A DNA stretch of 64,000 nt from Selaginella tamariscina (Eukaryota; Streptophyta; Lycopodiopsida; Selaginellales; Selaginellaceae): NCBI GenBank assembly GCA_003024785.1, contig PUQB01000670.1, forward strand, positions 1-64,000, read 5' to 3'. Within the stretch, counting starts at the first letter, position 1. The number at the start of each line of letters is the position of its first letter. Positions 14,693 through 61,560 of the stretch are shown in pieces. Made by a program: the position numbers and the translations under genes. The notes beneath the pieces were generated by a model. It did no database searches. It saw nothing but the letters and a program-made list of their open reading frames with translations, and was not told the origin of the DNA.

Positions 14693-14726
<34 letters not shown>

Positions 14727-18619: not shown

Positions 18620-18818
18620 TGTAAGGTAATTACCATGTTATATTCTAGAAGTTACTAGTGTAAGGTAATTACCATGGTATATTCTAGAAGTTACTAGAGA
18701 TATTTATGGTCGGTTAAATCCTTTATAGGATAGTCCAAAAATAACTAGAATATACCTTTTCCTTTGTATATAAAACCCTGACCTTGTATACAAAGGATAT
18801 CTGAGTTTTCTGTCTTTT
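18620..18818 (+). repeat. Ty3 LTR, 5' part, interrupted by copy C
   Basis: Starts TGTAAGGTAATTACCATG after a purine tract; a block of about 40 bp is tandemly duplicated at the start. A TATA-like motif (TGTATATAAAACCC) lies near 18,770. It stops at the copy C terminus at 18,819, and a plausible continuation (TTTTTTGTATATTTACTG) resumes at 25,959. Copy C therefore appears to have inserted in this LTR. Confidence 0.6.
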
Positions 18819-18847
18819 TGCAAGTTGTAACTAAAATGGGCATGGCT
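18819..18847 (+). repeat. Terminal inverted repeat of copy C, X side
   Basis: TGCAAGTTGTAACTAAAATG then GGCATGGCT. Matches the reverse complement of the D right end (61,160-61,188) and differs from the Y-side terminus at two positions within the core. Confidence 0.85.
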
Positions 18848-19323
18848 ATAGTCCCATTTCCTAATAATTAGCAATTTTAGCTATTTAATTAGCATTTTCT
18901 AATATTAAAGGAATATTCTTTAGAATATATGTTTGAAAAGAGAATATTCTTTAGAATATTCTATTTTGTATTCTACCCTTTAATAAATTATAGCATTCAT
19001 TGAACAAAAATTAATAACATTATAAAAGTAGAAGTATTAAATTATATAATATATTGCCTAATATAACAATTAAGGAAGAGCATAAGAGGTACATTATATA
19101 AATATTGATGTTGTTATTAAAATATTAATATTTAAATATAACATTATTAATTAAAAATTTGTAGTAGTAATAATATATATATAAAATCCTATAATAATAT
19201 AGTCAATCTTCCATATCATTTTTTAAATTTATATAGTTAAGTATACAATTTGGTACTATTATTAAAGAGTTTATAATAATTATGAATATTAAATATATGA
19301 TATTTTATAATTTTGTAATTGCT
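18848..19323. other. AT-rich subterminal region of copy C
   Basis: AT-rich sequence between the terminus and the gene X stop, matched in reverse at 60,686-61,160 of copy D. Short repeats of AATATTCTTTAGAATAT (self-complementary) occur near 18,910-18,960. It probably contains the 3' UTR of gene X. Confidence 0.6.
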
Positions 19324-22300
19324 TTAAGCTTCAGAAAACATACATTCCCTTGCAGTTTTGTTAATCGTGACTTTATCAACGCTTCTTGACATCCACCCAT
19401 ATCGAATGGATTTAACATTTATAAAACATGCTGGGTCTTTTTGATTGGGAGACCATGTTTTCTCTAGGCATCCATTATATCTTTCGCTCTCCTTCTCGTG
19501 TCGCCTTTTTTGTGGTTTGAACCATGCAACCTTAACAATACTATTTTTTGTGATTACTTCAGGTGTGTCGATAATTTGACCCATCCAAATAGGCTGATTA
19601 TATGACGCATCTGGAGTAATGAGAACCATCATTAGTTTTTGAAGATCCTTGCAGCAATCAAAGTATGCTTTAGGTTTTTGGTTCCTTTGTCCAACAAAGT
19701 GTGGGGTTTGCACTTCCACATCACTACTGGCTTCTATGTCGTCTGTGCTCAGTGATGTCATTTCAATCTCCTCTCGCCACCTTGTTTTAGGCCAGAAAGG
19801 GTGTTGCAATTCTGTACTTGTGACAGTAGGCCCTTCCAACTCTCGAACAACAGTCTCCCAATAGTTGACCACATGCTTATATAGTTCTGAGTAACCAGTT
19901 GCCTTATCAGAATTCTTTGGCATCGATTTTTGAACCCATGCCACATATTTTTTGATGCCATCAATAATAACCTCTTGTTCCTTGAGCTGGGCACTCAATG
20001 GAATAGGGTCTGGTTGTCCTTCTGGGAGAAGTGGCTTTCCATCCTCTCCACTTTTGAAGAGCATTAAGCCCTCTTTCGGTAACCACTCCTGCTCTGATGG
20101 CCGTAACTTGTACTGCATAATAGGTATACCATCTCGTATGGAGAAAAAGAATTGTAGCGGCACAAGGTGACCAACTAAAGAATCACTCCCTTCTTTTATA
20201 TACTCCTTGAGAAATTTTTTGAAGTCTGGCACCTCAGTCACAAGCAAAGCACAACTTTTTTTGGAGATGCAATTTTCAAAAAGATTCATCATATGCGGTA
20301 AGGTAAGTGCACTTGTCCTTTTTGTAGAGTTGGAGACCTTGCTGAAGAACGCATCAATATCTTCATGAGTGTGACCAACCATAAGGAAACTGAGCGTGAT
20401 TGTTTCAAACACACCTTTGGCAACAAGCATTGACAAGTATGCTAGCACATATCTAGAAAATAAAAGTAAGTATGAGCTTGAGAAACCCTTAAGTAAAATG
20501 ATTTACCTATTTTTGTTCTCGCCTGCACAATTATCCATCTGTAAAAGCAAATGACGAGGAAGCTTATTTGATGTTGAGGACACATGTACACTATTTGAGC
20601 TAGATCCCTCCACTGAACCTGAACTCTCAACAGGGCCATCTGTTTTTTGTGCAGGTTGACAATGCCTCTCATATTCCCAAGTAGCCTCAAGTGCAGACGT
20701 GTTCATGAGAGCATTATGTAAAGGTTGAAGGTGTTGTTTCTTCACTTTGAGATCACTGATAGGACTTGTCTGTGAGTGGGCTTCAAGGTTTCTGAAACAC
20801 ATGGCTAACGACCCAATAGTGAAATTGGAGTCGCTAGACCAATGTGGAAGTGAAAAGTGTCCATATGACTCACAACCGTGTCCATGTGTTAGCACACCTG
20901 TCAATGAAATCGGAAGTTTCATGACATTTCCAAGGCACTTTGGTGTTGCAAAGAGCTTTGGAATGCTGGTCTTTGAATGATCCATCTTGTCATGGATCAA
21001 GCACAGGTACTCTGATGGGCGTGACACAGAAAGCATGCGGTGTGCATAGTACTGAGACCGGCAAGTTTGTTGTGCAATCATGTGGGCCTCCATCTTCCTT
21101 TGAATGGTAGTGATCTCCACCAAGGTTTTTGCACAAGCCTCTGCAGCCTTCAATGATGTACAAGTGTCACACTTAGAAAAGCTAGAGTGTTTTGCAATCT
21201 CCACATCCTTAAAATGAGTATTCCATATGTTGTTGAAGGTACCAGTGCAGATTGCTTGGAGCCCCATCAAACTGAGGCACTTGTTCACATGTTCACACAG
21301 TTTCAATTGAGTGTAGATTGAAGGTAAAACCTTGAGATTTTCCCTGACCCCTGCATTTGTGGTTCGGCATTTGTGAGGCATCCTGTCTGCATTTGCTTCC
21401 ACAAAAGCCTTGAGTATCTCTATGGCTGCCATGATGTGAGAGCGGGTTTTGACCAAGCGAGTGTTCCCATGAACTGAGGTTCGCGCTCCATCTAGCCACT
21501 CATCCCTCCGACGGTAGAACGTGGTCTTTGGGATCCCGTATATACTGTACCAAGCTTTGAAGCAGATGGCCACCTTATTAAATACCATGGATGTACTCTG
21601 ATAACCTGTGTCCGAGGCCATTCCATCAATACACCCAGTTAGTGCAGCATATACAAACTCATGCCTTTGCTTTTGGGTGAGCATACGAAAGACATGTCTA
21701 CATTGGGTAATTTCATTCCGGTCTGCCATCTGACAACACTTCTTCTTGCAACAGTCAATCGTGGAAATGCTCGTAACACTTTCGGAAGATGTAGGATCCA
21801 TCTTTACCCTCTTGCTGAAACTTGCAGGGGAAGATCTACAACCCATGAATCGCCTTTTTCTTACAATAGGACCAATGCAAGGAACCTCTTCAAATATGAG
21901 TTGTTCTTCCGGGTTGTTATTATTGAAATCCAACCCAGAATATGTTGAACCATCTTGCCGTCTTAATTCAGATGTTCGCCACCTCACGAGGGATCCAGGA
22001 TACAATGTGCCATTAGGTGAAACCTCTGTCACAACTACACCCACGAAGTCGGACCCTAGTTTCTCTTCTGACACTGCTTCCATTGGATTTATAGCTGTGA
22101 TGATGCCTCTTCCGACTTCAATCTCACGAAGAAAGAGAATCACCTCATCCATCACAGCAGGCAAGCCATCATCTGGTAAACTCGTGCTACTATTTGTTTG
22201 TGACTCTGCATATTCTGTGTCAGCCTTGACTTCATCCAAATTCCACAATACAGGAGAACCCTCCTCAAATTCCATTCCCAGAACCTCAACATGCTTGTAA

Positions 22301-22452
22301 ATGGTGTTCACCCATACGTACACACAAGATCCTTGGGCAATATTGTGACATGATGCATTATTATCTCGAACTTCCACAGTTCCAGTGCCAACTATCTCGT
22401 TGTTCCGAAGAAGACATACTTTATCTCCAGTATTAAACATATTGTCCTGCAC
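19324..22452 (-). CDS. Gene X copy C: DDE/D-type transposase (DUF7869-like), open across one intron
   Basis: Presumed transposase. Exon 1 is 22,452-20,507 and exon 2 is 20,452-19,324, joined by a 54-bp GT-AG intron that keeps frame (ENKNR then YVLAYL). The first ATG in frame is 12 bases inside the tract, and a 3' splice-like TTATGTGCAG precedes it, so an upstream exon is possible. The product is about 1,020 aa. Residues about 9-75 form a small beta-rich domain resembling DUF8039 of plant transposon proteins. A Cys-rich patch is at 234-240, then CDTC at 428-431. Candidate catalytic acids are D488 (LCLIHDKMD), D640 (LQMDNCAGENKN) and D680/D682 (GHTHEDIDAFF), a layout typical of RNase H-fold transposases. 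Family naming is from memory; the catalytic assignment is inference. Confidence 0.8.
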
Positions 22453-22590
22453 ATAAATAATTGTATTATTTATGATATCTGTTTATGCAATATTTCTAAG
22501 AAATCTGAATTACGGTTACTTAATAATATGCATATGCAATAATACATAATTATGTTTAGAGATAATATCTCATGTTTGATTAATACAACT
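22453..22590. promoter_or_regulatory. Upstream region of gene X (copy C)
   Basis: AT-rich leader between array and gene X, conserved in copy D (57,421-57,560). It ends with a 3' splice-like TTATGTGCAG just before the open frame. No unambiguous TATA box can be assigned. Confidence 0.35.
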
Positions 22591-22862
22591 GATGGGCGGG
22601 ATTAATCCCGCCACGAATCCCTCCGACGAGGAACGGTCGGCGGGATTAATCCCGCCGCCGACTCAACCCCTTCGGAGAGAGTCGGCGGGATTAATCCGCC
22701 GCCGCTCAACCCCTTCGGAGAAGTCGGCGGGATTAATCCCGCCTTGGACTCCCTCCGACAAGGAAGAGCCGGCGGGATTAATCCCGCCGCCTCTTCCTCC
22801 TCGGGGGAGTCCGGTGGGATTAATCCCGCCGACTCTCTCCGGCGAGGATGAGTCGGCGGGAG
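22591..22862. repeat. Palindrome array C (short)
   Basis: About seven GGCGGGATTAATCCCGCC-type units, the reverse complement of the gene-X end of array D2, with recurring spacers (GACTCCCTCCGACAAGGAAG). The array ends inside a palindrome: after GGCGGGA the next bases are GAAGCCTTTAAATGG of gene Z. This junction is the internal deletion breakpoint of copy C. Confidence 0.9.
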
Positions 22863-24236
22863 AAGCCTTTAAATGGAACAACGATGGAGGAGATGGAAGT
22901 CTTGGCTGATTTGGTGATCGATGGCAAACTACAAATTAATAACAGCAGCCCAACCTCTCCTTTTCATCTCAAGGCAATGGAGTTGAAGACGGTCAGGCAT
23001 TTCAAGGAGTGGTTGGGAATACACTGCCACAAACTGGGTTGGACCTCGACTTCAACATATGAAGAGGTCAGCAAATATTTGCATGTGACGAACAATGATA
23101 TGCTTGTCGAATGGGTGAACCAATCGGAAGATCTGGGCAAGAATCTATTGCAGCCAACGCCAAAAAGGAGAACATTGGGATGACGCCTTTTCTTATGGCG
23201 TCCTTCAGCAGCGGAGAACCGAATTGAACCTTATAAAGGAGGATGCTACAAATCACGACAAGCCCTACAGATGTTTGTTGTTAGATTCGGAGACTTTATG
23301 GGGTAACATCACTGCTTGTAGGAAACCGTTTCAATTGTTCGTGATGGATCGGCGGGTGTCAAAAAATCTTTCGACAGATAGGGCACTAGAGGATCTGGTG
23401 GAGAAACTTAGCCGTGCAAGCATATACATAGAAGGTATTTATTATTGAATTCATGCTTGCGCTCTTCACTGATACCTACTTTTTCAGGTATTTATTTCTT
23501 GATTCTTGCTCATGTCACCGATACTTTTGCCTTCGCCTTCGCCAAGAAGAATAGACATCGTTGGACAGGATTTTATATGAACGATGCTAATCCCAAGTGC
23601 ATTGATACCGTTGTTCACTTGGTTGTTAGGAATGCGCCAAACAATTTCAAGCTTCCAAATGACTGGCCAGGCATCTGTTTGCACTCCAACGGCCCTGAAC
23701 CTCCATCCGATACACCGATAGGTATGAGTGACGTATTCGACAATGTACGTTATCCAAACATTACAAGTCAAGCGGCACGGAGCATCGTCAACTTGATTAG
23801 GGGTCCTCACAGTGATGCGTGGGTTTTTGACTACTGCACTAGGGGGTCCGTCTTGAAGGAGTGTTACCTTCGGCATACATGTGTGTTTGCCGTTGAAAAG
23901 GATAAGACCATGGTTGAGGACCTGAACAAGTGGATAGATTGGGTCTCAACTGAGTACCCCAACGATTCCATAAAGGCGTATTTGAGAAAGTTCCCTCCAG
24001 ATAAGTGCGATAGCTCTGAAGGTGAATCTGGTTCAATCTCGGAGTCTGAAGAACGAACTTCAATCAGATATTAGATCGGAAGTTATCTCGAGGAGTACAG
24101 AACATTCGCACACTCTAGGACCCATGGAAACATCAATAGAAGATGCAGAAGATCTTGAACCATCTCACAAGCGGCTTAGACCTTCTTCGCCTCACTCAGA
24201 AGGTAATAGCGAAGAAGAATTGATAATGAATTGATA
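22863..24236 (+). pseudogene. Gene Z copy C: 3' portion only
   Basis: The C-terminal half of gene Z remains, joined directly to the palindrome array. It reads KPLNGTTMEEMEVLADLV, a frameshift near 23,150, LNLIKEDATNHDKPYRCLLL, an intron (donor after YIEG at about 23,433, acceptor TTTTTCAG near 23,486), then GIYFLILAHVTDTFAFAFAK and the methyltransferase-like segment GPHSDAWVFDYCTRGS / FAVEKDKTMV. A further frameshift lies near 24,055 and the stop is near 24,236. The N-terminal module and ParB-like domain are deleted, so this copy cannot make the full protein. Confidence 0.75.
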
Positions 24237-24506
24237 GAGTGACGAATAGTTGTAAATGAGTGTAACATAAGGCATTTTTGTATATTTCTTTTATATTTGT
24301 ACAGAAAATAAATTCTCAAGGATTAATGAAGCTTTTAGTTCAAACATGGGTCACACATTAACAAGGTAAATAATATACCTTGATAATTTTAAGGTCAGCT
24401 AATTATCATTTTGCAGATGTAATGAAATAATTGAGAACATGGATTTTCAGCATTGCCATGAGGTAAGAGAGGGGTTTGGCGACAATTTCTTGTGCCACAT
24501 GTCAGA

Positions 24507-25672
24507 ATGACAGAGTTCATGCAGGAAATGGATAATAATGCAGCTCAAAACATCGTTACCATGGGGGCCACTTCATCATCATTTTTATTGGCTTCAATTC
24601 CGAAATCAATTTCTTCAGCGCATGCAATATCTGAATCTTGTAAGGATGATGTACAATTAAATGATGAAGGGATAGGCAACGAGATAGTGGCAACAGATAA
24701 ATGTGAAAGGGAGCAAACAAGTGATTTGCAAAGTATTCAAGAGGCAATGCTATCTTATGTTACTCATGGCCATATTGTGTTGTTGGATGTCAATGGTGTT
24801 CTGCTTCATCGACAAAGGCCCGAGGATAGGAAAAAAGAAATCAAACAAGGAGATTTCATTCCTTGTCATGGTAAATTTCGATATGATATTATTTTTCGTC
24901 CAGGGTTGGATCGTCTCTTTCAAAAGCTTAAGGAGATGGGTGCGCTTGTGGGGATTTGGTCATGCATGCAGATTCATAACTTAACACCGCTGTTGAATTT
25001 ACTTAAGAAACATTGTAGTGTTGCAGAAGAGGTGATTCGTAAAGATTGGATTTTTGACCAGCGAATATGTTATAAACCTCTCGAATTTCACAATATAAGA
25101 AAGGAAAGCAAGCCGTACTTCTTCAAGAATGAAAGAATAATTGGGACTCATGGGGAGATCAGTCGCTTAAGGATAATGAAGAACGCACAGATGTTAGTAG
25201 TAGACGACTCTCCTCAGAAGGCTATGCTCAACCAAAACATTGCTTGTATTCATCCAATCACTTTTGATCCATATTCTGATACCGATATCATGGATGAGCT
25301 AGTGAACTACTTGGATACGTGCCTCAGAAAGAAGAATCTCGAAAATTTTTGTGAGCAGCATTCACCGTATCATATATTCCTGAAGCTTTTCTTTCTCGTG
25401 ATATTGAATTTTATAAAATGAAGGATAGCAACCGGGCGCTTTATAATATTATTCTTAAGGAACGTCAGTTCTTAGATGAGCCTTTATGCAGACCTTCTCT
25501 TATCACATCTTATGTATTAACAAGGATGGCAACTCCCAATTGCATTCATGAGAGTGTTAAGTGGTGGCAACAACATCAAGATATTGACCAAAAAGATTTG
25601 ATTAATCCGGAGAGTGATGATTTAGACAAAATAAGAAGATTTCTTTGTATGATAGGAAGAAAGTATTTATAA
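24507..25672 (+). pseudogene. Gene Y copy C: FCP1/NIF-like HAD phosphatase, one late frameshift
   Basis: Cargo phosphatase. The first in-frame ATG is at 24,507 (MTEFMQEMDNN). Numbering from the open tract 15 bases upstream, the HAD nucleophile motif is at 99-103 (LLDVNGVLL), a conserved FRPGLDRLF at 135-143, IWS at 155-157 and VVDDSPQKAM at 236-245, the pattern of FCP1/NLI-interacting-factor phosphatases that act on RNA polymerase II CTD or similar phosphoproteins. The second Asp of DxDG is Asn, seen in some plant relatives but possibly lowering activity. A frameshift near 25,375 (CEQHSPYHIF) separates the last about 90 residues (KDSNRALYN to the stop at 25,672), which remain in frame in copy D. 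Confidence 0.75.
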
Positions 25673-25958
25673 AAAAATTAACATGTTGATAAGAAAAATT
25701 TCATTTATAATTATGTTTGATAGTATTTCTTCATTATTGTAAACTATTTTTAGAATAATATGAATATTCTAAGATATTTTAGGAATATTCCTTACTAAGT
25801 AAGGTTATTGAAGGATTAATTAATTAATTAATTAATATTTAAGGCTTAATTACATATTAATTAAATAATTAATTAATAATTAAAACTTAAGTATTAATTA
25901 GTAATTTATTTTATATTCCCATTTTCACGTATCATGCCCACTTTAGTTACAACGTGCA
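25673..25958. repeat. AT-rich subterminal region and Y-side terminus of copy C
   Basis: AT-rich, containing a run of ATTA repeats (AATTAATTAATTAATT) and ending with the inverted terminal sequence CTTTAGTTACAACGTGCA. Mirrors 46,315-46,600 of copy D and 7,772-8,040 of copy B. Confidence 0.8.
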
Positions 25959-26176
25959 TTTTTTGTATATTTACTGTGTTGTGTCTCGGGGTTCTCACAT
26001 ATTTACTTTAATTTTCAGGGGTTTTTTTAGTACATTTGTTAGGGTTTCTTAAATTTTATTTAAACTTTATTTATTTACATCGGTGCTGAAACATTGTGAA
26101 CATACAAATTAATGCATTCACAAAGCTTTGTAAATGCATTTCCATTACCTACAAATTTTCTACGCCACATATATTC
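25959..26176. repeat. Probable remainder of the Ty3 LTR split by copy C
   Basis: TTTTTTGTATATTTACTGTG and following bases look like the downstream part of the LTR begun at 18,620. The LTR 3' end could not be fixed. The rest is featureless AT-rich DNA. Confidence 0.4.
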
Positions 26177-45851: not shown

Positions 45852-46314
45852 TTGCAATTCAGTTGCAAGTAAATTTGCTGCCGTACAGTGGTCTGAAAGC
45901 AAATTTGCTTTCGTATTAACGAGTAATTTATTATAAAATATTCTGTCTATATTAGATTCTTTATTATATTTTGTGAACTGGTGTATATTTTGCTGCATTA
46001 ATCTCACTTGTTTGAGTGAGATACTCGCTACTGTTTGTTCTTCTATCTGCATTTTTATATCATATACATATAGTAACACTGAATTATAATAAGCAAAAAA
46101 ACTTAATTTTAATTAAATATAATTAATTGTGAAAGATTTTTTTCTGCCGAACAAAGTCACTGGGTAAAAGCACATCTTGGGCAAATAAGAAGAAGACATA
46201 CACTCAAGACGCCATAGCCAAAGCATGTGAGCAACCACAGGGCGAAATCAAGACTCACAAATCGGATATAGAAAGAGGGCAAAAACATGGAGAAACCAGT
46301 TGGAAGGCCAAACA
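45852..46314. other. Flank left of copy D without a visible gene
   Basis: No supported coding region or RNA gene. Confidence 0.4.
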
Positions 46315-46343
46315 TGCACGTTGTAACTAAAGTGGGCATGATA
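46315..46343 (+). repeat. Left terminal inverted repeat, copy D
   Basis: TGCACGTTGTAACTAAAGTG then GGCATGATA. Pairs with 61,160-61,188 over about 27 bp with two differences; similarity fades further in. Confidence 0.88.
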
Positions 46344-46601
46344 CGTGAAAATGGGAATATAAAATAAATTACTAATTAATACTTAAGTTTTAATTATTAA
46401 TTAATCATTTAATTAATATGTAATTAAGCCTTAAATATTAATTAATTAATTAATTAATCCTTCAATAACCTTACTTAGTAAGGAATATTCCTAAAATATC
46501 TTAGAATATTCATATTATTCTAAAAATAGTTTACAATAATGAAGAAATACTATCAAACATAATTACAAATGAAATCATTTTCTTATCAACATGTTAATTT
46601 T

Positions 46602-47767
46602 TTATAAATACTTTCTTTCTATCATACAAAGAAATCTTTTCATTTTGTCTAAATCATCACTCTCCGGATTAATCAAATCATTTTGGTCAATATCTTGATG
46701 TTGTTGCCACCACTTAACACTCTCACGAATGCAATTGGGAGTTGCCATCCTTGTTAATACATAAGATGTGATAAGAGAAGGTCTGCATAAAGGCTCATCT
46801 AAAAACTGACGTTCCTTAAGAATAATATTATAAAGCGCCCGGTTGCTATCCTTCATTTTATAAAATTCAATATCACGAGAAAGAAAAGCTTCAGGAAATG
46901 TATGATACGGTGGATACTGCTCACAAAAATTTTCGAGATTCTTCTTTCTGAGGCACGTATCCAAGTAGTTCACTAGCTCATCCATGATATCGGTATCAGA
47001 ATATGGATCGAAAGTGATTGGATGAATACAAGCAATGTTTTGGTTGAGCATAGCCTTCTGAGGAGAGTCGTCTACTACTAAGATATGTGCATTCTTCGTT
47101 ATCCTTAAGCGACTGATCTCCCCATGAGTCCCAATTATTCTTTCATTCTTGAAGAAGTATGGCTTGCTTTCCTTTCTTATATTGTGAAATTCGAGAGGTT
47201 TATGACACATTCGCTGGTCAAAAATCCAATCTTTACGAATCACCTCTTCTGCAACACTACAATGTTTCTTAAGTAAATTCAACAGCGGTGTTAAGTTATG
47301 AATCTGCATGCATGACCAAATCCCCACAAGCGCACCCATCTCCTTAAGCTTTTGAAAGAGACGATCCAACCCTGGACGAAAAATAATATCATATCGAAAT
47401 TTACCATGACAAGGAATGAAATCTCCTTGTTTGATTTCTTTTTTCTATCCTCGGGCCTTTGTCGATGAAGCAGAACACCATTGACATCCAACAACACAAT
47501 ATGGCCATGAGTAACATGAGATAGCGTTGCCTCTTGAATACTTTGCAAATCACTTGTTTGCTCCCTTTCACATTTATCCGTTGCCACTATCTCGTTGCCT
47601 ATCCCTTCATCATTTAATTGTACATCATCCTTACAAGATTCAGATATTGCATGCGCTGAAGAAATTGATTTCGGAATTGAAGCCAATAAAAATGATGATG
47701 AAGTGGCCCCCATGGTAACGATGTTTTGAGCTGCATTATTATCCATTTCCTGCATGAACTCTGTCAT
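46602..47767 (-). pseudogene. Gene Y copy D: FCP1/NIF-like HAD phosphatase cargo (one frameshift)
   Basis: Start chosen at ATG 47,767 (MTEFMQEMDNN). A one-base deletion near 47,440 (after LLHRQRPEDRKK) splits it. The N-terminal part holds LLDVNGVLL; the C-terminal part runs open from DRLFQKLKEMGALVGIWSCM through VVDDSPQKAMLNQ to the stop at 46,602. The roughly 130-residue tail beyond the phosphatase domain (PEAFLSRDIEF, SLITSYVLTRMATPN, WWQQHQDIDQNDLINPESDD) is intact here and has no match I know. FCP1-like enzymes dephosphorylate Ser/Thr on RNA polymerase II CTD or transcription factors. The gene is present in all four copies, so it is stable cargo. Confidence 0.8.
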
Positions 47768-48039
47768 TCTGACATGTGGCACAAGAAATTGTCGCCAAAC
47801 CCCTCTCTTACCTCATGGCAATGCTGAAAATCCATGTTCTCAATTATTTCATTACATCTGCAAAATGATAATTAGCTGACCTTAAAATTATCAAGGTATA
47901 TTATTTACCTTGTTAATGTGTGACCCATGTTTGAACTAAAAGCTTCATTAATCCTTGAGAATTTATTTTCTGTACAAATATAAAAGAAATATACAAAAAT
48001 GCCTTATGTTACACTCATTTACAACTATTCATCACTCTA

Positions 48040-51000
48040 TCAATTCATTATCAATTCTTCTTCGCTATTACCTTCTGAGTGAGGCGAAGAAGGTCTAAGC
48101 CGCTTGTGAGATGGTTCAAGATCTTCTGCATCTTCTATTGATGTTTCCATGGGTCCTGGAGTGTGCGAATGTTCTGTACTCCTCGAGATAACTTCCGGTC
48201 TAATATCTGATTGAAGTTCGTTCTCAGACTCCGAGATTGAACCAGATTCACCTTCAGAGCTATCGCACTTATCTGGAGGGAACTTTCTCAAATACGCCTT
48301 TATGGAATCGTTGGGGTACTCAGTTGAGACCCAATCTATCCACTTGTTCAGGTCCTCAACCATGGTCTTATCCTTTTCAACGGCAAACACACATGTATGC
48401 CGAAGGTAACACTCCTTCAAGACGGACCCCCTAGTGCAGTAGTCAAAAACCCACGCATCACTGTGAGGACCCCTGATCAAGTTGACGATGCTCCGTGCCG
48501 CTTGACTTGTAATGTTTGGATAACGTACATTGCCGAATACGTCACTCATACCTATCGGTGTATCGGATGGAGGTTCAGGGCCGTTGGAGTGCAAACAGAT
48601 GCCTGGCCAGTCATTTGGAAGCTTGAAATTGTTTGGCGCATTCCTAACAACCAAGTGAACAACGGTATCAATGCACTTGGGATTAGCATCGTTCATATAA
48701 AATCCTGTCCAACGATGTCTATTCTTCTTGGCGAAGGCGAAGGCGAAGGCAAAAGTATCGGTGACATGAGCAAGAATCAAGAAATAAATACCTGAAAAAG
48801 TAGGTATCAGTGAAGAGCGCAAGCATGAATTCAATAATAAATACCTTCTATGTATATGCTTGCACGGCTAAGTTTCTCCACCAGATCCTCTAGTGCCCTA
48901 TCTGTCGAAAGATTTTTTGACACCCGCCGATCCATCACGAACAATTGAAACGGTTTCCTACAAGCAGTGATGTTACCCCATAAAGTCTCCGAATCTAACA
49001 ACAAACATCTGTAGGGCTTGTCGTGATTCGTAGCATCCTCCTTTATAAGGTTCAATTCGGTTCTCCGCTGCTGAAGGACTGCCATAAGAGAAGGCGTCAT
49101 CCCAATGTTCTCCTTTTTGGCGTTGGCGTGCAATAGATTCTTGCCAGATCTTCCGATTGGTTCACCCATTCGACAAGCATATCATCGTTCGTCACATGCA
49201 AATATTTGCTGACCTCTTCATATGTTGAAGTCGAGGTCCAACCCAGTTTGTGGCAGTGTATTCCCAACCACTCCTTGAAATGCCTGACCGTCTTCAACTC
49301 CATTGCCTTGAGATGAAAAGGAGAGGTTGGGCTGCTGTTATTAATTTGTAGTTTGCCATCGATCACCAAATCAGCCAAGACTTCCATCTCCTCCATCGTT
49401 GTTCCATTTAAAGGCTTCAACCATGTGAGCTTGAAATCGTTGTCTACATCCTTTGTAGATTGAACAGACTTAGCCTTCGGCGTCTTACTGGGTTTCTTTG
49501 CAGACTTTTCTGAGGGCTCCCCTTCACTTGTCTGCTTCTTCTTCAGTGTTCCTTTTGAAAAGGATTCCATAATCCCCAACCATTTGGCAAAGATCCTATC
49601 TTCGGGGCAAGAAATCAACATCATCAGAAAGGATGTTTCCTTCCCGCCCACCTGGGCAAAATCAACTGCTGCAATTTCTTCAACTCTCTGAGGAAAAAGA
49701 CAGATTAATATACCGGCGAGATAAATCCCGCCCAAACAATTTGCTTACCCGGTATTCCGCAGATTGTGTATTCCCTGCGGTAGCTCTTTGTGGTCGCTGA
49801 AGAGATTCCCACACGGCTCGCGTGTGTTTAAACTTCTCCCATATTTTGCTGTTGTAGTGGTTGGTGTCGGCAGCGTCCCATTCCGCCGATAACTTATGGT
49901 ACTGCTCGATTGTGAGATTCGGCTTAGCTAAAAACGCCGATCTTTTTGTCAGCTTCTCACGGGTATGCTCGGAAAGTTTTGTTGCCATCGTTCCTTTGTT
50001 GTGTTCTCGAGAAGTCGTTGGGCTGCCGTTATTGTGTGCTGGCCACTAATGATGTAGTACTTGATAGATTTTTTATTCTCCGTCTGAATCTTCATGAGTT
50101 GTTCTGGTGTTGTGATCCAGACTTTGTCAGCGCCCTTCCTTCTTTCATAGTATGGACACAAAACAGCATTATGTGGAACGGTATAAGAATTGTCGTCCTT
50201 CATCTTCTCCATGAGCTCAGCTACACGTTCCTGGTTGAGTGGCCTGTAATTGAAGTTTGGGTTGACGCTGCAATATTTAACCCTACAAGGATAAATCTTA
50301 TCATCCAACATCATTTCCTTGTGACTTATTGCAGCATGAGATGCCACAGGTGCAGCTGACAAAACGATTGATGATTTTCTTTTGCGATCCGAATCAACAT
50401 GTGTGATCCCCGACTGCAGCTGTTCTAGTGTTCTCGGCACACTCTTCCAGCTCCCAAAGCTTCCTAAGCAAATTGAACGTGATCTGTAGAGAACCTGAGA
50501 CCGAGCCACCCTCTCAATCTCCTTATGATGTCGCTGTGTTCTTCTTCAATGTGAAGAGGGAAGATTGCTCCACTTGCTGATTTTCTGTATTGTGAAGCAA
50601 TATCTCCTGACAATACACCTACTCGATGAGTCTGAAGATTTCGAAGTAGACATCCAGATGGATCCCCTCCATAGATGGGCTTTCGTTGAGTTGAAGAAGA
50701 ACTCCAAGGTCAACATCATTAGTGAACACGTGAACGTCATTATCCACAAGTCGACAAAACCACCCGAATTAATGTTGTAACTGACGACCTCTGGATCCGA
50801 GAACGTGACATTGGATGGAACAAGGCATATGTGTCGAATCGTCCAATCTGGGTTCGCAGCCTGCTTTCGGGTGCTTGACTAGCGAATCTACTTTCCATTG
50901 TTTTGCTTGTCCATGAGATGTGACAGAGGTTAATTTGACAGCAGCCATGGTTGCTCCAATGCGCTTCCCATTTATCTTAAAATATGGCCAAGTTGATTCC

Positions 51001-51183
51001 AGAATCCCCCTGCCCATCTCTTCTCCTGCTCTTGTCTTTAATGTCACCTCAATTCCACATCTGAATACAAAAATGATTAGTTCAAGTATCCGAGTATAAC
51101 AGATTTTATTTTAATTCTTACCCAGAATTTGACGACGACTCCATACTAATGACTCGATCTCCTTGTTTGATCAAATCGTCCTT
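48040..51183 (-). pseudogene. Gene Z copy D: N-terminal module, ParB-like domain, methyltransferase-like C-terminus (frameshifted)
   Basis: Exon KDDLIKQGDRVISMESSSN (51,183-51,122) with GT-AG intron, then EVTLKTRAGEEMGRGILEST; an acidic middle domain; a ParB/Srx-like domain (NFNYRPLNQERVAELMEKMK ... KYYIISGQHTITAAQRLLE, 50,270-50,030), with GQHT in place of the usual GxRR/GQHR; a linker; LTWLKPLNGTTMEEMEVLAD; PYRCLLLDSETLWG; an intron at about 48,794-48,841; and a C-terminal part with GPHSDAWVFDYCTRGSVLKE / CVFAVEKDKTM, resembling the SAM-binding motif of N6-adenine methyltransferases (lD.F.GSG...E.D). No clear DPPW/NPPY catalytic motif is seen, so methylation is uncertain. The acidic tail ends EEELIMN at 48,040. 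Frameshifts near 50,850, 50,520, 49,985 and 49,150 disrupt it. ParB assignment is fairly strong, methyltransferase weaker. Confidence 0.65.
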
Positions 51184-51481
51184 CTGCAAAATAATACACT
51201 ATAAATAAAATATATAAAAACGCACACACACTTGTATAAACCCGAATATACAAAAATAATACACAGAGAGAAGTAGACGTAATTAACTGTCCGAAGCTCA
51301 CATTTGTGTTAGTGCAAAAGAAAGATAACATTTCGTTTTAGAACCACCACAAATGTGAGCTCTGGACAGTTTTACATAGATTCCTAGCTTTTACTCGAAA
51401 TATTAATAAGATGATAAAAGTAAATAAAATGAGATATGCAACTTATATATACTAATACACATATATATTCACATGGAAGGT
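51184..51481. promoter_or_regulatory. Leader of gene Z (copy D)
   Basis: AT-rich region between gene Z and array D1, with the inverted blocks GTCCGAAGCTCACATTTGTG and CACAAATGTGAGCTCTGGAC (51,289-51,367), which pair except for two bases and could form a stem of about 20 bp with a 40-nt loop. Conserved in A and B. Confidence 0.45.
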
Positions 51482-53000
51482 GCGGCGGGATTAATCTCGC
51501 CACCCCTTCAATGCCTCCTGAAAGAGTGGGCGGGATTAATCTCGCCACCTTTCTGGAGGCCTTGAACGGGAGTGCGGAATTAATCTTGCCACCCTTCTCG
51601 GTCTCAGAGAGAACTGGGCAGGATTTATTTCTCACACCCCTTCAGTGACTCCAGAAAGGGGCGGGATTAATCTCGCCCACCATGTAAGGGATGGTTAAAT
51701 GAATTTCCCCACCCTTCCCATTCTCTCCATTGGTATGTTGTAAACCTTCTACGTCTCAGACAGAAACGTTTGGGATTGGTCCGACTCACCAATGGAGAAA
51801 AAAGGAAGGGTGGCGGGATTCATTCCTCCAACAGGCATTGAAGACTCGGCGGGATTAATCCCGCCGCCCAGGGCCTTCACTCGGTCCCTATGCGGCGGGA
51901 TTAATCCCGCCGGACGCCAATTCCCTGCGCGGAATCGGGCGGGATTAATCCCGCCGCCTAGGCACTTCAGCAGGCCAATGGCGGCGGGATAAATCCCGCC
52001 CGATTCCGCGCAGGGAATTGGCGTCCGGCGGGATTAATCCCGCCTCCCAGGCCCTTCACTCGGGCCTTAGTCGGCGGGATTAATCCCGCCGAACGCCAAT
52101 GCCCTGTGCGAAATCTTGCGGGATTAATCCCGCCGCCTAGGCCCTTCAGGCAGGCCAATGGCGGCGGGATAAATCCCGCCCGATTCCGCGCAGGGCATGC
52201 GTACGCGGCGGGATTAATCCCGCCCACCATGTAAGGGATGGTGAAATTAATCCCACCACCCTTCTCAGTTCCCTCCATTGGTATTTTGTAAACCTTCTCC
52301 GTCTCAGACAGAGTTAGTCGGGATTGATTCAACATACCAATGGAAAAAAAGAAGGTGGCGGGATTAATCCCGCCACCGGGCAATGAAGGTTCGGAGAGAC
52401 TAATCCCGCCGCCCTCTCGTAAATCATGCGCTCACACATATATATTGGCTGCGGCATTTTGAACAGGGATGGGTGGGGGCGGGATTAATCCCGCCGCTTA
52501 TATCCTGCGGAAGTGCCTGAGCGGCGGGATTAATCCCGCCGCCCTCCGCGAAGGGCATGAGCGTGGGGGGATTAATCCCGCCGTTCATGTCCTGCGTGAA
52601 TTCCCTGGCGGCGGGATTAATCCCGCCGCCTTACGCAGGACATGTCATGCAGGCTCTTCGGTTAGCCTTCCGTGCAGGATCTTTCATGCAGGCTCTTCGG
52701 TTAGCCTCATGAGCGGCGGGATTAATCCCGCCGCCCATCCCCTGTAAATGCCCTGCGCGGAATCCGCGGGATTAATCCCGCCCATTAGGGCCTTCACACA
52801 GGCCATTGCCGGCGAGATAAATCCCGCCGCATTCCGCGCAGGGCATGGGTGAGCGGCGGGATTAATCCCGCCGCCGAGGCCCCTCACGCAGGCCATGGGC
52901 GGCGGGATTAATCCCGCCGCTCTTCGGTTTGTCCTAGAGCGGCGGGATTAATCCCGCCGCCATGGCCAACCTATAGCGGCGGGATTAATCCCGCCGCTCG
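51482..53000. repeat. Palindrome array D1 (long)
   Basis: About 1.5 kb of GGCGGGATTAATCCCGCC units with 20-40-bp spacers. Cores become more perfect toward the right; the last units (52,850-53,000) extend to GCGGCGGGATTAATCCCGCC plus GC. Spacers occur in both orientations: the spacer starting GGACGCCAATTCCCTGCGCG at about 51,911 reappears reverse-complemented at about 52,003-52,030. Frames across it read GGINPA and AGLIPP by symmetry and are not genes. Confidence 0.93.
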
Positions 53001-53080
53001 AGGGGCTTAGCGTGTGTGCGAGAGATAAAATTAATAAATAAAAAAATTATACAGATAAAAACACACACATATATATATGT

Positions 53081-53154
<74 letters not shown>

Positions 53155-53866
53155 TGTATGTAGTATGTATAGGAGTGTACGTGTGTGTGCAAGAGATAGA
53201 TAAATAAATAAAATTATACAGTACTGGTACACATAATATATGTGTGTACATAGGTATATATATGTGTGTATATGTATATCGTGTGTATGCGTGTGAGCGA
53301 AACAAATAAAATCATACAGATAAACAAACACACACACACACATATATATACACAGGAGTGTGCATGTGTGTGATAAAAATAAAAATTATACAGATAAACA
53401 CACACATATATATGTGTGTATATAGATATAGAGAGTCTGTGAATATATAAGCATATATATAAACTAGTGTTGTATACTATTTGTTAATATGCATTGATAT
53501 ATATATATATGTAAAGCAGTGTGCGTGTGTGTGGGAGAGATAGATCAAAAAAAAAATTATATAGATACTGGTACACATAATATATGTATGTATATATGTA
53601 TATAGGTATATATATATGTATATGTATATTGTGTGTATGCGTGTGTGAGCGAAACAAATAAAATCATACAGATAAACAAACACACACACACACATATATA
53701 TATACACAGGAGTGTGCGTGTGTGTGCGAGAGATAAAACTAATAAATAAATAAAATTATACAGATAAACACACACATATATATATGTGTGTATATATATA
53801 ACCCATATGAATATATAAGCATATATATAAACTAGTGTTGTATACTATTTGTTAATATGCATTGAT

Positions 53867-53920
<54 letters not shown>

Positions 53921-54182
53921 GCAGTGTGCGTGTGTGTGGGAGAGATAGATCAATAAAAAAAATTTATAGATACTGGTACACATAATATATGTATGTATAT
54001 GTATATAGGTATATATATATATGTGTATATGTATATCGTGTGTATGCGTGTGTGAGCGAAACAAATAAAATCATACAGATAAACAAACACACACCCACAC
54101 ACACATATACATACACAGGAGTGTGCGTGTGTGTGCGAGAGATAAAACTAATAAATAAATTTATACGCACACTCCTATACAT

Positions 54183-54223
<41 letters not shown>

Positions 54224-54265
54224 GATCTCACCTGTGTGCACAGCCCCGCCGGATTTCACAGCCGC
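53001..54265. repeat. Composite microsatellite block (copy D)
   Basis: (TA)n near 53,083-53,140, (GT)n near 53,880-53,918, and three or more long direct repeats of about 350 bp sharing links such as AAATAAAATCATACAGATAA and GAGTGTGCGTGTGTG. Ends near a short GCCGCCGCC tract, as in copy B. Confidence 0.88.
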
Positions 54266-55260
54266 CGCCTCTTGAAACCCTAAGAATATACCTAAACCCT
54301 AAAGGAATTAAATATATATATTAACCCTAATAGAATATTCCTTCTGAGAATATACTTAAACCCTAAAAAGAATAAAATATAGATTCGCCCTAAACGAATA
54401 TTCTTTCATTATATTATTAGCGCGTGCGTGTGCGTGGGTGTATCACATACACCCCAAAAATATAAATCATGCAGGGATTTAACATGTGTGTGTCCATGAG
54501 AGTGTTAAAGTTTCATGTGTATCAATACATACATACACATTGCATATATTAATACACATAATATATACATACACACGTGTATACACACAGACATACATAC
54601 ATATTACATGGGTTTAGGGTTTAGGGTTTAGGGTTTTGGATTTAGGATGGATCATGCATGGTGTGTATGTATGAGAGAAAGAGAGAGTGTTGAAAAATTA
54701 TTTTTGTACACATTGCATATATTAGTACACATATATACTTACACATATTATACACAGATATACATACATAGTATATGAGAGAAGAGAGACAGTACATATT
54801 ATGGATCATGCATGGTGTGTATTATACACACAGACATACATACATATTAGTACATAATATTAGAGACCGAGTACATATTATAGATCATGCATGGTGTGTA
54901 TGTTTGAGAGAAGAGACACAGTACATATTAACATGGATCATGCATGGTGTGTATGTATGAGAGAAGACAGAAAGTACACATATATACATACAGAGTACAC
55001 ATATATACATACACACGTGTATACACACAGACATACATACATATTACATGAGTAAATTCATTGTGTTACATATTAGGGTTTAGGGTTTAGGGTTTAGGAT
55101 GGATCATGCATGGTGTGAAGAGAGAGTGTTGAAAAATTATTTTTGTACACACATGTATACACAGGGTTTAGGGTTTAGGGTTTAGGGTTTGCTCCCAACA
55201 AGCTTAATATAAATATTACACATGTAAATTCAATGTGTTACATACACACAGATTGAGTAC
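54266..55260. repeat. CATGCATG-type repeats with perfect TTTAGGG runs (copy D)
   Basis: The unit GGATCATGCATGGTGTGTAT plus GTATGAGAGAAGAG recurs at about 54,648, 54,803, 54,884, 54,935 and 55,100. Three short runs of the plant telomere repeat TTTAGGG (three to four units each) lie at about 54,610-54,635, 55,073-55,098 and 55,163-55,190, all on the same strand. Confidence 0.85.
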
Positions 55261-56777
55261 ATATATCATACATGCGTTGAACATGATGTTTTCAATAAAG
55301 AAGCAACATATTTCTTCAGTTTGGTTTAGGGTTGTGCATGTGTGTGCATATGTGTTTTTGTAAGTTCTTGTAATGCGTGTGTAAATTTATGATTGTGTTT
55401 ATATATGTGTGCAAAACAAACATCGAATAATTAAGAAAATAATATTAATAAACACACTATGAACATATTTTAAATTATACATAATAATATATGATTTTAT
55501 TAATATATAGCCATATATAGTTTTAATAATATATATTAATTTAATATTGATAAAAAGGTTTAACATTGAAATATTCTTGAAATAATAAGAAATTAATTGA
55601 GAAAATCCCATTAATATATACAAATGTAAATTAAGTACTCAAATAATTAACTAAATTAATTATCATAATCATGTTTAATATTGGAATATTCTTGGAATAA
55701 TAAGAAAATAATAAAGAATATCCCATTAATATAAAGAAGATTAATTACTCAAGTAATTAAGGAAATGATATTAATATACACACTATGAACATATTTAAAT
55801 TATACATAATATACATATTTTATCTATATATAGTCATATATAGTTTTAAAATATATTAATTTAATATTGATAATAAGGTTTAACACATGAATATTCTTGA
55901 AATAATAACAAATTAATTGAGAAAATCCCATTAATATATACAAATGTAGAATAATTACTGCAATAATTAAGAACAAGACTAATTTAATTATGATAATCAG
56001 GTTTAATATTAGAATATTCTTCAAATATTAATAAAATAATAAAGAATATCCCATTGATACTAGGAAATGAAAACTAAATACTCGAGTAATTAAGAAAATA
56101 ATAATAATAAACAGACTATGAATATATTTTAAATGATACATAATAATATATCAATTTATTTATTGTATAAGTATATATTTATATATATATATAATATAAA
56201 TATACTTGAATACTAAGAATGTAGAATATAGTCTAAAATTTCGTAATATTAAACAGCTTGAATCACTTGAATAACATTAAATGCAATTTTAAAATACTCA
56301 TTGGAACTGGAGAGTATATATGTCAGAGTGTCGGATATTTGTGTCAACTCATCTTAAATTTTATTTTCTGTTCTTTTTAAAAAATTTGAATTTCTGACAT
56401 ATGTATTGTCGGTCTGACATGTAAATTTGAAAATGCATTTAATTTCCCACTCAAATTCAGATCTGGTTCTTTCTCCGGCAAGGGTTTCTTCATTTCTGTA
56501 TTTTTCACTCTTTAGATCTTCTTTTTTCTTCATAGTGATCATCTCAGGAGCGAGATTAAATTGGGTGCTATTCTTTATAGGAAAGCACGGCGCCTTCAGT
56601 GCTGTTTACAAGTAAGTATTATAAACAAATTTAAAAATACTTATAAAGATTCACTCTCTTACATTCTCTCTTAAAATTACAATTTAGGGTTTAGGAATGC
56701 ATTAGGATTATAATATATTCCGTTAGGGATTTATCCCGTTTAAATATCCTTTTAACTTAATATTCTAGGTTAACCGG
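55261..56777. other. AT-rich spacer and putative leader before array D2
   Basis: Diverged direct repeats about 350-400 bp long (phrases TAATTTAATATTGATAA and GAGAAAATCCCATTAATATA occur at about 55,535 and 55,855). From about 56,310 composition becomes mixed and contains TTCTCCGGCAAGGGTTTCTT and a splice-donor-like CAAGTAAGTATT at about 56,608. This could be a 5' UTR exon of gene X (inference). Confidence 0.5.
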
Positions 56778-57420
56778 GGCGGCGGGATTAATCCGGCCAT
56801 TTCTTTTTCGCCTCTTCGAAGAGGTGGCGGGATTAATCCCGCCACCATCTCTCGGGCAATGCTTCTCCGCCACTGAAAAAGAGTGGCGGGATTAATCCCG
56901 CCGATAACCTTCTCAACTGATGAAGAGTTACCAGAATTTATTAGAAAGAGTTGTCGGCGGGATTAATCCCGCCAACCATTTTAGGAGGCAGGGAAGGGGT
57001 GGCGGGATTAATCTCGCCACCACATCCCTGTTTTAAGGATTTGGGGACAGGATTTATCCCGAGATCTCTTTGAAATCATAGTTTTGGAGAGAGTTATGTG
57101 CGGGTTTAATCCCGCCACCCATTCCCCGTCGTAAGAATTGTGGGCGGGATTAATCCCGCCGACTCCCTCCGACAAGGAAGAGCCGGCGGGATTAATCCCG
57201 CCGATCTCCTCGTCGGAGAGAGTCGGCGGGATTAATCCCGCCGGACTCCCCCGAGGAGGAAGAGGCGGCGGGATTAATCCCGCCGGCTCTTCCTTGTCGG
57301 AGGGAGTCCAAGGCGGGATTAATCCCGCCGACTCTCTCCGAAGGGGTTGAGTCGGCGGCGGGATTAATCCGCCGACCGTTCCTCGTCGGAGGGATTCGTG
57401 GGCGGGATTAATCCCGCCCA
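56778..57420. repeat. Palindrome array D2
   Basis: I count about 13 units, nine with a perfect 18-bp core. Arm extensions vary but stay symmetric (GGTGGCGGG/CCCGCCACC, GTCGGCGGG/CCCGCCGAC). The spacer GACTCCCTCCGACAAGGAAG near 57,160 recurs in reverse complement near 57,285. Array C of copy C derives from this end. Confidence 0.93.
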
Positions 57421-57560
57421 TCAGTTGTATTAATCAAACATGAGATATTATCTCTAAACATAATTATGTATTATTGCATATGCATATTATTAAGTAACCG
57501 TAATTCAGATTTCTTAGAAATATTGCATAAACAGATATCATAAATAATACAATTATTTAT
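57421..57560. promoter_or_regulatory. Upstream region of gene X (copy D)
   Basis: AT-rich, nearly the mirror of 22,453-22,590. Ends in a 3' splice-like TTATGTGCAG. Close spacing to array D2 means palindromes lie within 150 bp of the X frame. Confidence 0.35.
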
Positions 57561-60500
57561 GTGCAGGACAATATGTTTAATACTGGAGATAAAGTATGTC
57601 TTCTTCGGAACAACGAGATAGTTGGCACTGGAACTGTGGAAGTTCGAGATAATAATGCATCATGTCACAATATTGCCCAAGGATCTTGTGTGTACGTATG
57701 GGTGAACACCATTTACAAGCATGTTGAGGTTCTGGGAATGGAATTTGAGGAGGGTTCTCCTGTATTGTGGAATTTGGATGAAGTCAAGGCTGACACAGAA
57801 TATGCAGAGTCACAAACAAATAGTAGCACGAGTTTACCAGATGATGGCTTGCCTGCTGTGATGGATGAGGTGATTCTCTTTCTTCGTGAGATTGAAGTCG
57901 GAAGAGGCATCATCACAGCTATAAATCCAATGGAAGCAGTGTCAGAAGAGAAACTAGGGTCCGACTTCGTGGGTGTAGTTGTGACAGAGGTTTCACCTAA
58001 TGGCACATTGTATCCTGGATCCCTCGTGAGGTGGCGAACATCTGAATTAAGACGGCAAGATGGTTCAACATATTCTGGGTTGGATTTCAATAATAACAAC
58101 CCGGAAGAACAACTCATATTTGAAGAGGTTCCTTGCATTGGTCCTATTGTAAGAAAAAGGCGATTCATGGGTTGTAGATCTTCCCCTGCAAGTTTCAGCA
58201 AGAGGGTAAAGATGGATCCTACATCTTCCGAAAGTGTTACGAGCATTTCCACGATTGACTGTTGCAAGAAGAAGTGTTGTCAGATGGCAGACCGGAATGA
58301 AATTACCCAATGTAGACATGTCTTTCGTATGCTCACCCAAAAGCAAAGGCATGAGTTTGTATATGCTGCACTAACTGGGTGTATTGATGGAATGGCCTCG
58401 GACACAGGTTATCAGAGTACATCCATGGTATTTAATAAGGTGGCCATCTGCTTCAAAGCTTGGTACAGTATATACGGGATCCCAAAGACCACGTTCTACC
58501 GTCGGAGGGATGAGTGGCTAGATGGAGCGCGAACCTCAGTTCATGGGAACACTCGCTTGGTCAAAACCCGCTCTCACATCATGGCAGCCATAGAGATACT
58601 CAAGGCTTTTGTGGAAGCAAATGCAGACAGGATGCCTCACAAATGCCGAACCACAAATGCAGGGGTCAGGGAAAATCTCAAGGTTTTGCCTTCAATCTAC
58701 ACTCAATTGAACTGTGTGAACATGTGAACAAGTGCCTCAGTTTGATGGGGCTCCAAGCAATCTGCACTGGTACCTTCAACAACATATGGAATACTCATTT
58801 TAAGGATGTGGAGATTGCAAAACACTCTAGCTTTTCAAGTGTGACACTTGTACATCATTGAAGGCTGCAGAGGCTTGTGCAAAAACCTTGGTGGAGATCA
58901 CTGCCATTCAAAGAAGATGGAGGCCCACATGATTGCACAACAAACTTGCCGGTCTCAGTACTATGCACACCGCATGCTTTCTGTGTCACGCCCATCAGAG
59001 TACCTGTGCTTGATCCATGACAAGATGGATCATTCAAAGACCAGCATTCCAAAGCTCTTTGCAACACCAAAGTGCCTTGGAAATGTCATGAAACTTCCGA
59101 TTTCATTGACAGGTGTGCTAACACATGGACACGGTTGTGAGTCATATGGACACTTTTCACTTCCACATTGGTCTAGCGACTCCAATTTCACTATTGGGTC
59201 GTTAGCCATGTGTTTCAGAAACCTTGAAGCCCACTCACAGACAAGTCCTATCAGTGATCTCAAAGTGAAGAAACAACACCTTCAACCTTTACATAATGCT
59301 CTCATGAACACGTCTGCACTTGAGGCTACTTGGGAATATGAGAGGCATTGTCAACAGCCTGCACAAAAATAGATGGCCCTGTTGAGAGTTCTGGTTCAGT
59401 GGAGGGATCTAGCTCAAATAGTGTACATGTGTCCTCAACATCAAATAAGCTTCCTCGTCATTTGCTTTTACAGATGGATAATTGTGCAGGCGAGAACAAA
59501 AATAGGTAAATCATTTTACTTAAGGGTTTCTCAAGCTCATACTTACTTTTATTTTCTAGATATGTGCTAGCATACTTGTCAATGCTTGTTGCCAAAGGTG
59601 TGTTTGAAACAATCACGCTCAGTTTCCTTATGGTTGGTCACACTCATGAAGATATTGATGCGTTCTTCAGCAAGGTCTCCAACTCTACAAAAAGGACAAG
59701 TGCACTTACTTACCGCATATGATGAATCTTTTTGAAAATTGCATCTCCAAAAAAAGTTGTGCTTTGCTTGTGACTGAGGTGCCAGACTTCAAAAATTTCT
59801 CAAGGAGTATATAAAAGAAGGGAGTGATTCTTTAGTTGGTCACCTTGTGCCGCTACAATTCTTTTTCTCCATACGAGATGGTATACCTATTATGCAGTAC
59901 AAGTTACGGCCATCAGAGCAGGAGTGGTTACCGAAAGAGGGTTAATGCTCTTCAAAAGTGGAGAGGATGGAAAGCCACTTCTCCCAGAAGGACAACCAGA
60001 CCCTATTCCATTGAGTGCCCAGCTCAAGGAACAAGAGGTTATTATTGATGGCATCAAAAAATATGTGGCATGGGTTCAAAAATCGATGCCAAAGAATTCT
60101 GATAAGGCAACTGGTTACTCAGAACTATATAAGCATGTGGTCGACTATTGGGAGACTGTTGTTCGAGAGTTGGAAGGGCCTACTGTCACAAGTACAGAAT
60201 TGCAACACCCTTTCTGGCCTAAAACAAGGTGGCGAGAGGAGATTGAAATGACATCACTGAGCATAGACGACATAGAAGCCAGTAGTGATGTGGAAGTGCA
60301 AACCCCACACTTTGTTGGACAAAGGAACCAAAAACCTAAAGCATACTTTGATTGTTGCCAGGATCTTCAAAAACTAATGATGGTTCTCATTACTCCAGAT
60401 GCGTCATATAATCAGCCTATTTGGATGGGTCAAATTATCGACACACCTGAAGTAATCACAAAAAATAGTATTGTTAAGGTTGCATGGTTCAAACCACAAA

Positions 60501-60685
60501 AAAGGCGACACGAGAAGGAGAGCGAAAGATATAATGGATGCCTAGAGAAAACATGGTCTCCCAATCAAAAAGACCCAGCATGTTTTATAAATGTTAAATC
60601 CATTCGATATGGGTGGATGTCAAGAAGCGTTGATAAAGTCACGATTAACAAAACTGCAAGGGAATGTATGTTTTCTGAAGCTTAA
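57561..60685 (+). pseudogene. Gene X copy D: DDE/D-type transposase, several small indels
   Basis: Same gene as 19,324-22,452, in the opposite orientation. The first 384 codons are open (to about 58,712). Comparison with copy C shows one- to three-base indels near 58,712, 58,842, 59,355, 59,716, 59,795 and 59,942; the reading frame is again open from 59,924 to the stop at 60,685. The intron (GTAAATC to TTTTCTAG, about 59,506-59,560) is conserved. The candidate catalytic motifs LIHDKMD, MDNCAGENKN and GHTHEDID are all still encoded. The scattered small indels without large deletions suggest recent loss or sequencing/assembly errors. Confidence 0.85.
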
Positions 60686-61188
60686 AGCAATTACAAAATT
60701 ATAAAATATCATATATTTAATATTCATAATTATTATAAACTCTTTAATAATAGTACCAAATTGTATACTTAACTATATAAATTTAAAAAATGATATGGAA
60801 GATTGACTATATTATTATAGGATTTTAATATATATTATTACTACTACAAATTTTTAATTAATAATGTTATATTTAAATATTAATATTTTAATAACAACAT
60901 CAATATTTATATAATGTACCTCTTATGCTCTTCCTTAATTGTTATATTAGGCAATATATTATATAATTTAATACTTTACTTTTATAATGTTATTAATTTT
61001 TGTTCAATGAATGCTATAATTTATTAAAGGGTAGAATACAAAATAGAATATTCTAAAGAATATTCTCTTTTCAAACATATATTCTAAAGAATATTCCTTT
61101 AATATTAGAAAATGCTAATTAAATAGCTAAAATTGCTAATTATTAGGAAATGGGACTATAGCCATGCCCATTTTAGTTACAACTTGCA
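60686..61188. repeat. AT-rich subterminal region and right terminus of copy D
   Basis: Reverse of 18,819-19,323. Includes self-complementary AATATTCTAAAGAATATT motifs (near 61,045 and 61,080) and the terminal inverted repeat ending CAACTTGCA at 61,188. Confidence 0.8.
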
Positions 61189-61560
61189 TAACGCTTTCTC
61201 TTAGTCAGATCTTGGGGACGAATAACTGCTTCACATCAAGGTTGTGGTTGAGGCTTGCGTTATGGAGTCGTTGAAGTGCAGTATAACCCCAACACGAACT
61301 GAGTTGATGCATACATGACGGGAAAGGATGGCAAACTTTATGTGCACCCAACCGAGGCATCGCCCACGTGCGCTGGTTATGTTTTCAAGTGTACACTGTA
61401 GAAGGAGGATGGTTTATGTATTGGGCAGTAAGCAAGGCTTCAGTTTCCAAGGACATGCAGGGTGATGTGCTGCTCTTGGATCTTGTTAATAAAATCAATA
61501 TGTTCAACATAACCTGTATTAACTTATGTGTTAAAAAATATTAATTACGTGTGTTATGTC
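61189..61560. other. Right flank of copy D without a recognised gene
   Basis: Mixed composition; a short plus-strand stretch reads KDGKLYVHPTEASPTCAGYV near 61,325-61,390 but is too short to assign. Confidence 0.35.

Follow-up and report, generated by a model that had tools for sequence, protein, structure and literature searches.

Here we describe a large DNA transposon in Selaginella tamariscina, identified in a 64,000-nucleotide stretch (positions 1 to 64,000 of contig PUQB01000670.1, assembly GCA_003024785.1; referred to here as the window). We read it as a real and very abundant 15-kb transposon that carries a likely transposase gene (X), two extra genes (Y and Z), and palindrome arrays before its genes, with one of the extra genes (Z) resembling a protein of algal transposons; we give this reading as a whole a probability of roughly 0.6. 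That the element itself is a real, abundant, and recently active DNA transposon is almost certain.

Five matches to GTTGTAACTAAARTGGGCATG were detected in the window (mean in the shuffled window, 0.00), corresponding to both ends of copy A, both ends of copy B, and the left end of copy D. Once the six preceding bases are added, the terminal repeat is ATGCAMGTTGTAACTAAARTGGGCATG (27 bp). Copy A spans positions 46314 to 61189 (approximately 14.9 kb). Self-comparison of the window resolved A, B (inverted and with an internal deletion), C, and D (Table 1). An earlier note on this DNA had described matching inverted ends and four related copies, one internally deleted with both ends kept. This held for the ends of A and B, for the number of copies, and for the deletion in B; C and D turned out to be incomplete. 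The left side of C is cut by Gypsy-like sequence and its body is split by D, which has no right part. Because C and D are truncated, X is present only in A and B within the window.

The assembly (300.7 Mb; 1,391 contigs) was searched with a 21-base end pattern, allowing two or fewer mismatches. The pattern occurred 4,674 times, compared with zero occurrences of the reversed control. Among the first 100 places listed, 21 of 28 facing neighbor pairs were 11 to 19 kb apart, compared with 4 of 18 divergent pairs and 3 of 19 pairs on the same strand. Extrapolation gives approximately 980 near-full copies (approximately 14 Mb), a rough figure that serves as a guide only, as the 100 places were taken in contig order. 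Ten elements, hand-picked from the 21 facing pairs and including several whose ends had been inspected beforehand, were fetched in full (one of them, E2, includes 2,500 Ns and only half of Z is covered), and all ten carried Y, Z, and X in identical order and orientation. Gene Y also followed 20 of 20 further hand-picked left-type ends (1.5 kb inward; 323 to 388 of 388 residues). Within 1.2 kb inward of 20 hand-picked A-type ends, X was found at 16 (at least 44 residues), Y at 2, and neither at 2; some of these reads showed nested or rearranged copies. These counts support the proposal of the earlier note that this is a large DNA transposon in its own right, accompanied by two genes that stay with it, and its termini occur together with X, Y, and Z elsewhere in the genome. 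The left parts of E6 and E10 were 99.6% identical to that of A, which argues for recent spread. A separate locus (L092; G000 C1:1442173-1443373) consisted of 127 bp of right end followed directly by approximately 107 bp of left-end-like sequence; it is either a short derivative formed by deletion or a fragment of a nested insertion.

Taking the element boundary as ATGCA...TGCAT, we examined 24 end pairs, namely those of A, of B, and of 22 fetched places; an exact 4-bp duplication was present at 11 of them and in 6 of 552 mis-paired combinations. The 24 joined flanks were then used for the empty-site search that had been suggested as a check. Two clear cases were obtained: the joined flanks of C80 and C2b were 97% and 87% identical, respectively, to other copies of the element itself, and each empty site was shorter by exactly 4 nt. 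A third, more diverged case agreed (C2c, similar to a repeat at window positions 778 to 957 with 79% identity; the site itself was 4 nt shorter, and further small gaps lay close by). These empty sites are direct evidence for insertion with a 4-bp duplication. Paired inverted ends in many copies, the target duplication, and the empty sites together identify the element as a cut-and-paste DNA (terminal inverted repeat) transposon. The C80 and C2 copies (L059/L060 and L063/L064 of G000) were nested inside copies of the same element, and it was these that served as empty sites.

Gene X is very probably the transposase of the element. Both X parts of copy B matched DUF7869 (E values of 2.6e-12 and 1e-26), a domain of unknown function. 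We detected five clusters of X-like proteins, four of which were assigned to PF26133; the two full-length relatives (1,055 and 1,060 amino acids [aa]) align across the inferred intron/exon junction. Three conserved acidic motifs, HDKMD, DNC, and GHTHED, are present in X and in both of these relatives, in which the DNC aspartate and the GHTHED glutamate are separated by 38 residues; the same distance would apply to X if it is spliced as predicted. We infer the catalytic fold of X from such sequence features, and solved structures gave no sequence match to X. In the profile searches, DUF7869 alone was above the cut-off in X and its relatives, and no named transposase superfamily was reached.

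On balance, we lean toward a Sola-type classification, given that the 4-bp target duplication expected of Sola elements was observed at the 11 end pairs and at the C80 and C2b empty sites. Less probably, by a clear distance, X belongs to a transposase group that has no name so far, with the DUF7869 proteins as a superfamily of their own that makes 4-bp duplications. This would suit both the DUF7869 match, the only one of X to pass the cut-off, and the fact that the name DUF7869 was not found in the literature searched. However, there are Sola1 parallels for the duplication, the size, and the Z gene, and the missing Sola match says little, as the profiles were used without a Sola reference set.

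The consensus of gene Y is a single open reading frame (ORF) of 388 to 391 aa that matched PF03031 far above the curated cut-off (E value, 6.1e-13; 49.2 bits; cut-off, 21.8), in agreement with its earlier description as FCP1-like. The usual active-site motif of FCP1-type proteins is DxDx(T/V); the Y consensus instead reads DVNGV at this position, and phosphatase activity is therefore uncertain. The Z consensus consists of three exons (approximately 950 aa). By reading of motifs, YYIISGQHTITAAQRLL is labeled ParB-like and WVFDYCTRGSVLKECY...FAVEKD methyltransferase-like.

To assess selection, 12 rows were used for X and 14 each for Y and Z, and Y was repeated with 34 rows. Single-copy variants were near neutral (omega of 0.97 for X, 0.84 for Z, and 0.91 for Y). 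For variants common to at least two copies, omega was 0.35 in X (P = 5e-5), and in Z it was 0.50 (P = 2e-6); both genes were thus constrained while the family spread. Y showed no detectable purifying selection. The claim that the cargo is retained and hence useful is accordingly supported for Z, as for X, but draws no support from Y (omega of approximately 0.8, not significant).

The palindrome GGCGGGATTAATCCCGCC occurs in copy A as 24 exact units, or 42 units with four or fewer mismatches, arranged in two arrays plus one unit at position 49,715. All 87 sites of the window (four or fewer mismatches) fall within A to D. The number of exact palindromes ranged from 7 to 30 across A and nine of the fetched elements, all ten being full and almost free of gaps, and E2 had 12. 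When 12 elements were pooled, 205 of 432 units were exact, and column agreement was 88 to 100% within the palindrome, compared with 31 to 60% in the flanking columns. Y and Z might instead be passengers of host or foreign origin, captured a single time and of no use to the element, and the palindromes an expanding minisatellite. The lack of detectable constraint on Y and the minisatellite-like variation in exact palindrome number between elements point in that direction, but the shared Z variants are constrained, and the spacers diverge while those 205 palindrome units remain exact; we therefore regard this explanation as unlikely.

The hallmarks of CACTA (En/Spm) elements are CACTA ends, a 2- to 3-bp duplication, and a Transposase_21 domain; in a giant element of this type with accessory genes, the palindrome arrays would take the role of the subterminal TNPA sites. 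Such an origin is improbable, as the ends here are ATGCA, the duplication is 4 bp, and neither X nor its relatives matched Transposase_21, although two X relatives (P0003 and P0007) showed a weak N-terminal likeness to Transposase_23 (TNP1/EN/SPM; E values of 7e-4 and 3e-3; 19.9 and 17.8 bits, under the cut-off of 21), and giant EnSpm elements with accessory genes occur in red algae (as cited in PMC12477816).

Returning to the transposon with two companion genes and palindrome arrays, we tentatively predict that Z binds the palindromes. Z would combine a ParB-type protein with a methyltransferase-like part that has lost its catalytic motif, and would load onto the GGCGGGATTAATCCCGCC arrays at the two divergent promoters. 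Once loaded, it could keep these promoters open against silencing or tether the element, and Y may act as its partner enzyme. The fullest version of this proposal, in which a eukaryotic transposon has a ParB/parS-like system of its own and puts a plasmid-partition fold to use against silencing, with Y as partner, is speculative and less likely than not.

Several results weigh against our reading. An exact 4-bp duplication was absent from 13 of the 24 end pairs, including A and B (3 bp each). The joined flanks of C69a matched window positions 63035 to 63574 at 67% identity with a gap of 7 nt rather than 4, and those of C77 were microsatellite sequence, uninformative on insertion. No profile or homologue linked X to any named transposase superfamily. 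The shared-variant omega of Y was not significant (0.76, and 0.81 with 34 rows). The earlier ParB/methyltransferase-like description of Z is drawn from motifs and has a published parallel (PMC12477816), but searches of Pfam, PHROGs, NCBIfam, PDB, phage records, and a collection of 5.8 billion proteins gave no match to Z (apart from one Pfam entry at chance level, with an E value of 0.08, and a pair of designed PDB chains with E values of 2 to 7). The methylase motif [DNS]PP[YFW] was not found in the Z consensus, and an active methyltransferase is therefore doubtful. The palindrome units were selected at four or fewer mismatches, which inflates their apparent conservation. One unit lay outside the element, 349 bp to the left of E3; as this flank also matches a stretch of another fetched element, the unit probably belongs to another copy. 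Finally, frameshift indels were present in every copy examined, with X of copy B as the sole exception, and all three genes were unbroken in none, so that present-day autonomy is demonstrated for none of them. Many of these indels are single bases and may be assembly errors.

Table 1. Features of the element and of its copies in the window
Feature	Coordinates	Strand	Remarks
Left terminal inverted repeat, copy A	46314..46340	+	ATGCACGTTGTAACTAAAGTGGGCATG
Gene Y, copy A	46602..47767	-	FCP1/NIF-type HAD phosphatase domain; one frameshift indel
Gene Z, copy A	48040..51017	-	Three inferred exons, ~950 aa; ParB-like and methyltransferase-like motifs; 6 frameshift indels
Array 1, 18-bp palindrome GGCGGGATTAATCCCGCC	51484..52995		5' of Z; 28 units, <=4 mismatches
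Central region	52996..56780		AT-rich and microsatellite-rich; between two divergent transcription units
Array 2, palindrome GGCGGGATTAATCCCGCC	56781..57418		5' of X; 13 units, <=4 mismatches
Gene X, copy A	57573..60685	+	DUF7869 protein; 7 frameshift indels
Right terminal inverted repeat, copy A	61163..61189	-	ATGCAAGTTGTAACTAAAATGGGCATG, read inward
Copy B	18818..25959	-	Inverted; two ends kept; internal deletion; 7,142 bp
Gene X, copy B	19324..22440	-	Open in two exons; inferred intron of ~50 nt near 20,506-20,455
Copy C	1821..7770	+	Without left end; interrupted by D
Copy D	7771..16892	+	Left end present; right part including X replaced by Gypsy-like pol

By eye, the stretches that cut C and D (positions 1 to 600 and 16892 to 17340) are Gypsy-like, with chromodomain and RNase H-like sequence. 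Short telomere-like TTTAGGG units lie within the central part of D (15497 to 15522) and of A (54610 to 54646 and 55073 to 55190). Elsewhere in the window, a Ty1/copia-type pol in more than one frame was found at 33902 to 36521 on the minus strand (RVT_2, E value of 2e-57; integrase core, E value of 3e-14). ORFs at 29508 to 31002 on the minus strand contain a P-loop-like stretch (GTAGCGKSAFG) and had no Pfam match; they are putatively similar to Crinkler/RHS-type proteins.

The functions of the accessory genes of giant eukaryotic transposons are mostly unknown. Here, a single family of perhaps a thousand near-full copies ties a ParB/methyltransferase-like gene under constraint to a candidate target that is concrete and can be counted, namely tens of repeats of a perfect palindrome before the element genes, and a mechanism can thereby be tested by a single binding assay. 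No paper that brings together ParB, FCP1, and a transposon was found in the literature searched. Such cargo is less rare than had been assumed, as giant algal elements with accessory genes have been published.

The closest of these is Sola1-1_Ec32 of Ectocarpus, a giant DNA transposon of 21.5 kb with a large gene, encoded on the other strand from the transposase, that joins ParB-like and DNA methyltransferase-like parts (PMC12477816, which cites Iyer 2011 and Petroll 2025 in this passage). Compared by description, the two elements are alike in their giant size and in a gene of this kind opposite the transposase, the domains of Z being assigned by motif; they differ in length (14.9 kb here), and the available part of that description does not mention an FCP1-type gene or a palindrome array. 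Because Z resembles a protein recently reported from large algal transposons, our element looks like a new version of an established kind and not like a kind of its own. If this kinship of Z is true, the algal ParB-methyltransferase observation extends to another genome, together with a phosphatase-type gene. More generally, Sola elements duplicate 4 bp on insertion and some are longer than 15 kb (PMC10741241), Fanzor genes have been captured by Sola2 elements, and Sola1 is listed for the moss Physcomitrella (PMC10741241, PMC3627910, PMC9033089); a list of plant elements comprises Tc1, hAT, Sola, MuDR, PIF, and CACTA (PMC9033089), and the Academ duplication is given as 3 bp (PMC5199201). The element shares with Sola the 4-bp duplication, inverted ends, and a size of approximately 15 kb, a likeness drawn from the published descriptions.

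A second parallel concerns VANDAL elements, in which VANA21 is the transposase gene. The anti-silencing VANC proteins bind to motifs that lie in dense arrays in the noncoding parts of these elements (PMC5735166), and the arrays, which also occur upstream of VANA21, are changing (PMC5735166, PMC10398659). VANDAL elements are of the MULE type with a 9-base nonpalindromic motif, and binding is shown there, whereas it is only inferred for Z. Both systems have an accessory protein encoded by the element, and in both a short motif forms dense, changing arrays outside the coding parts.

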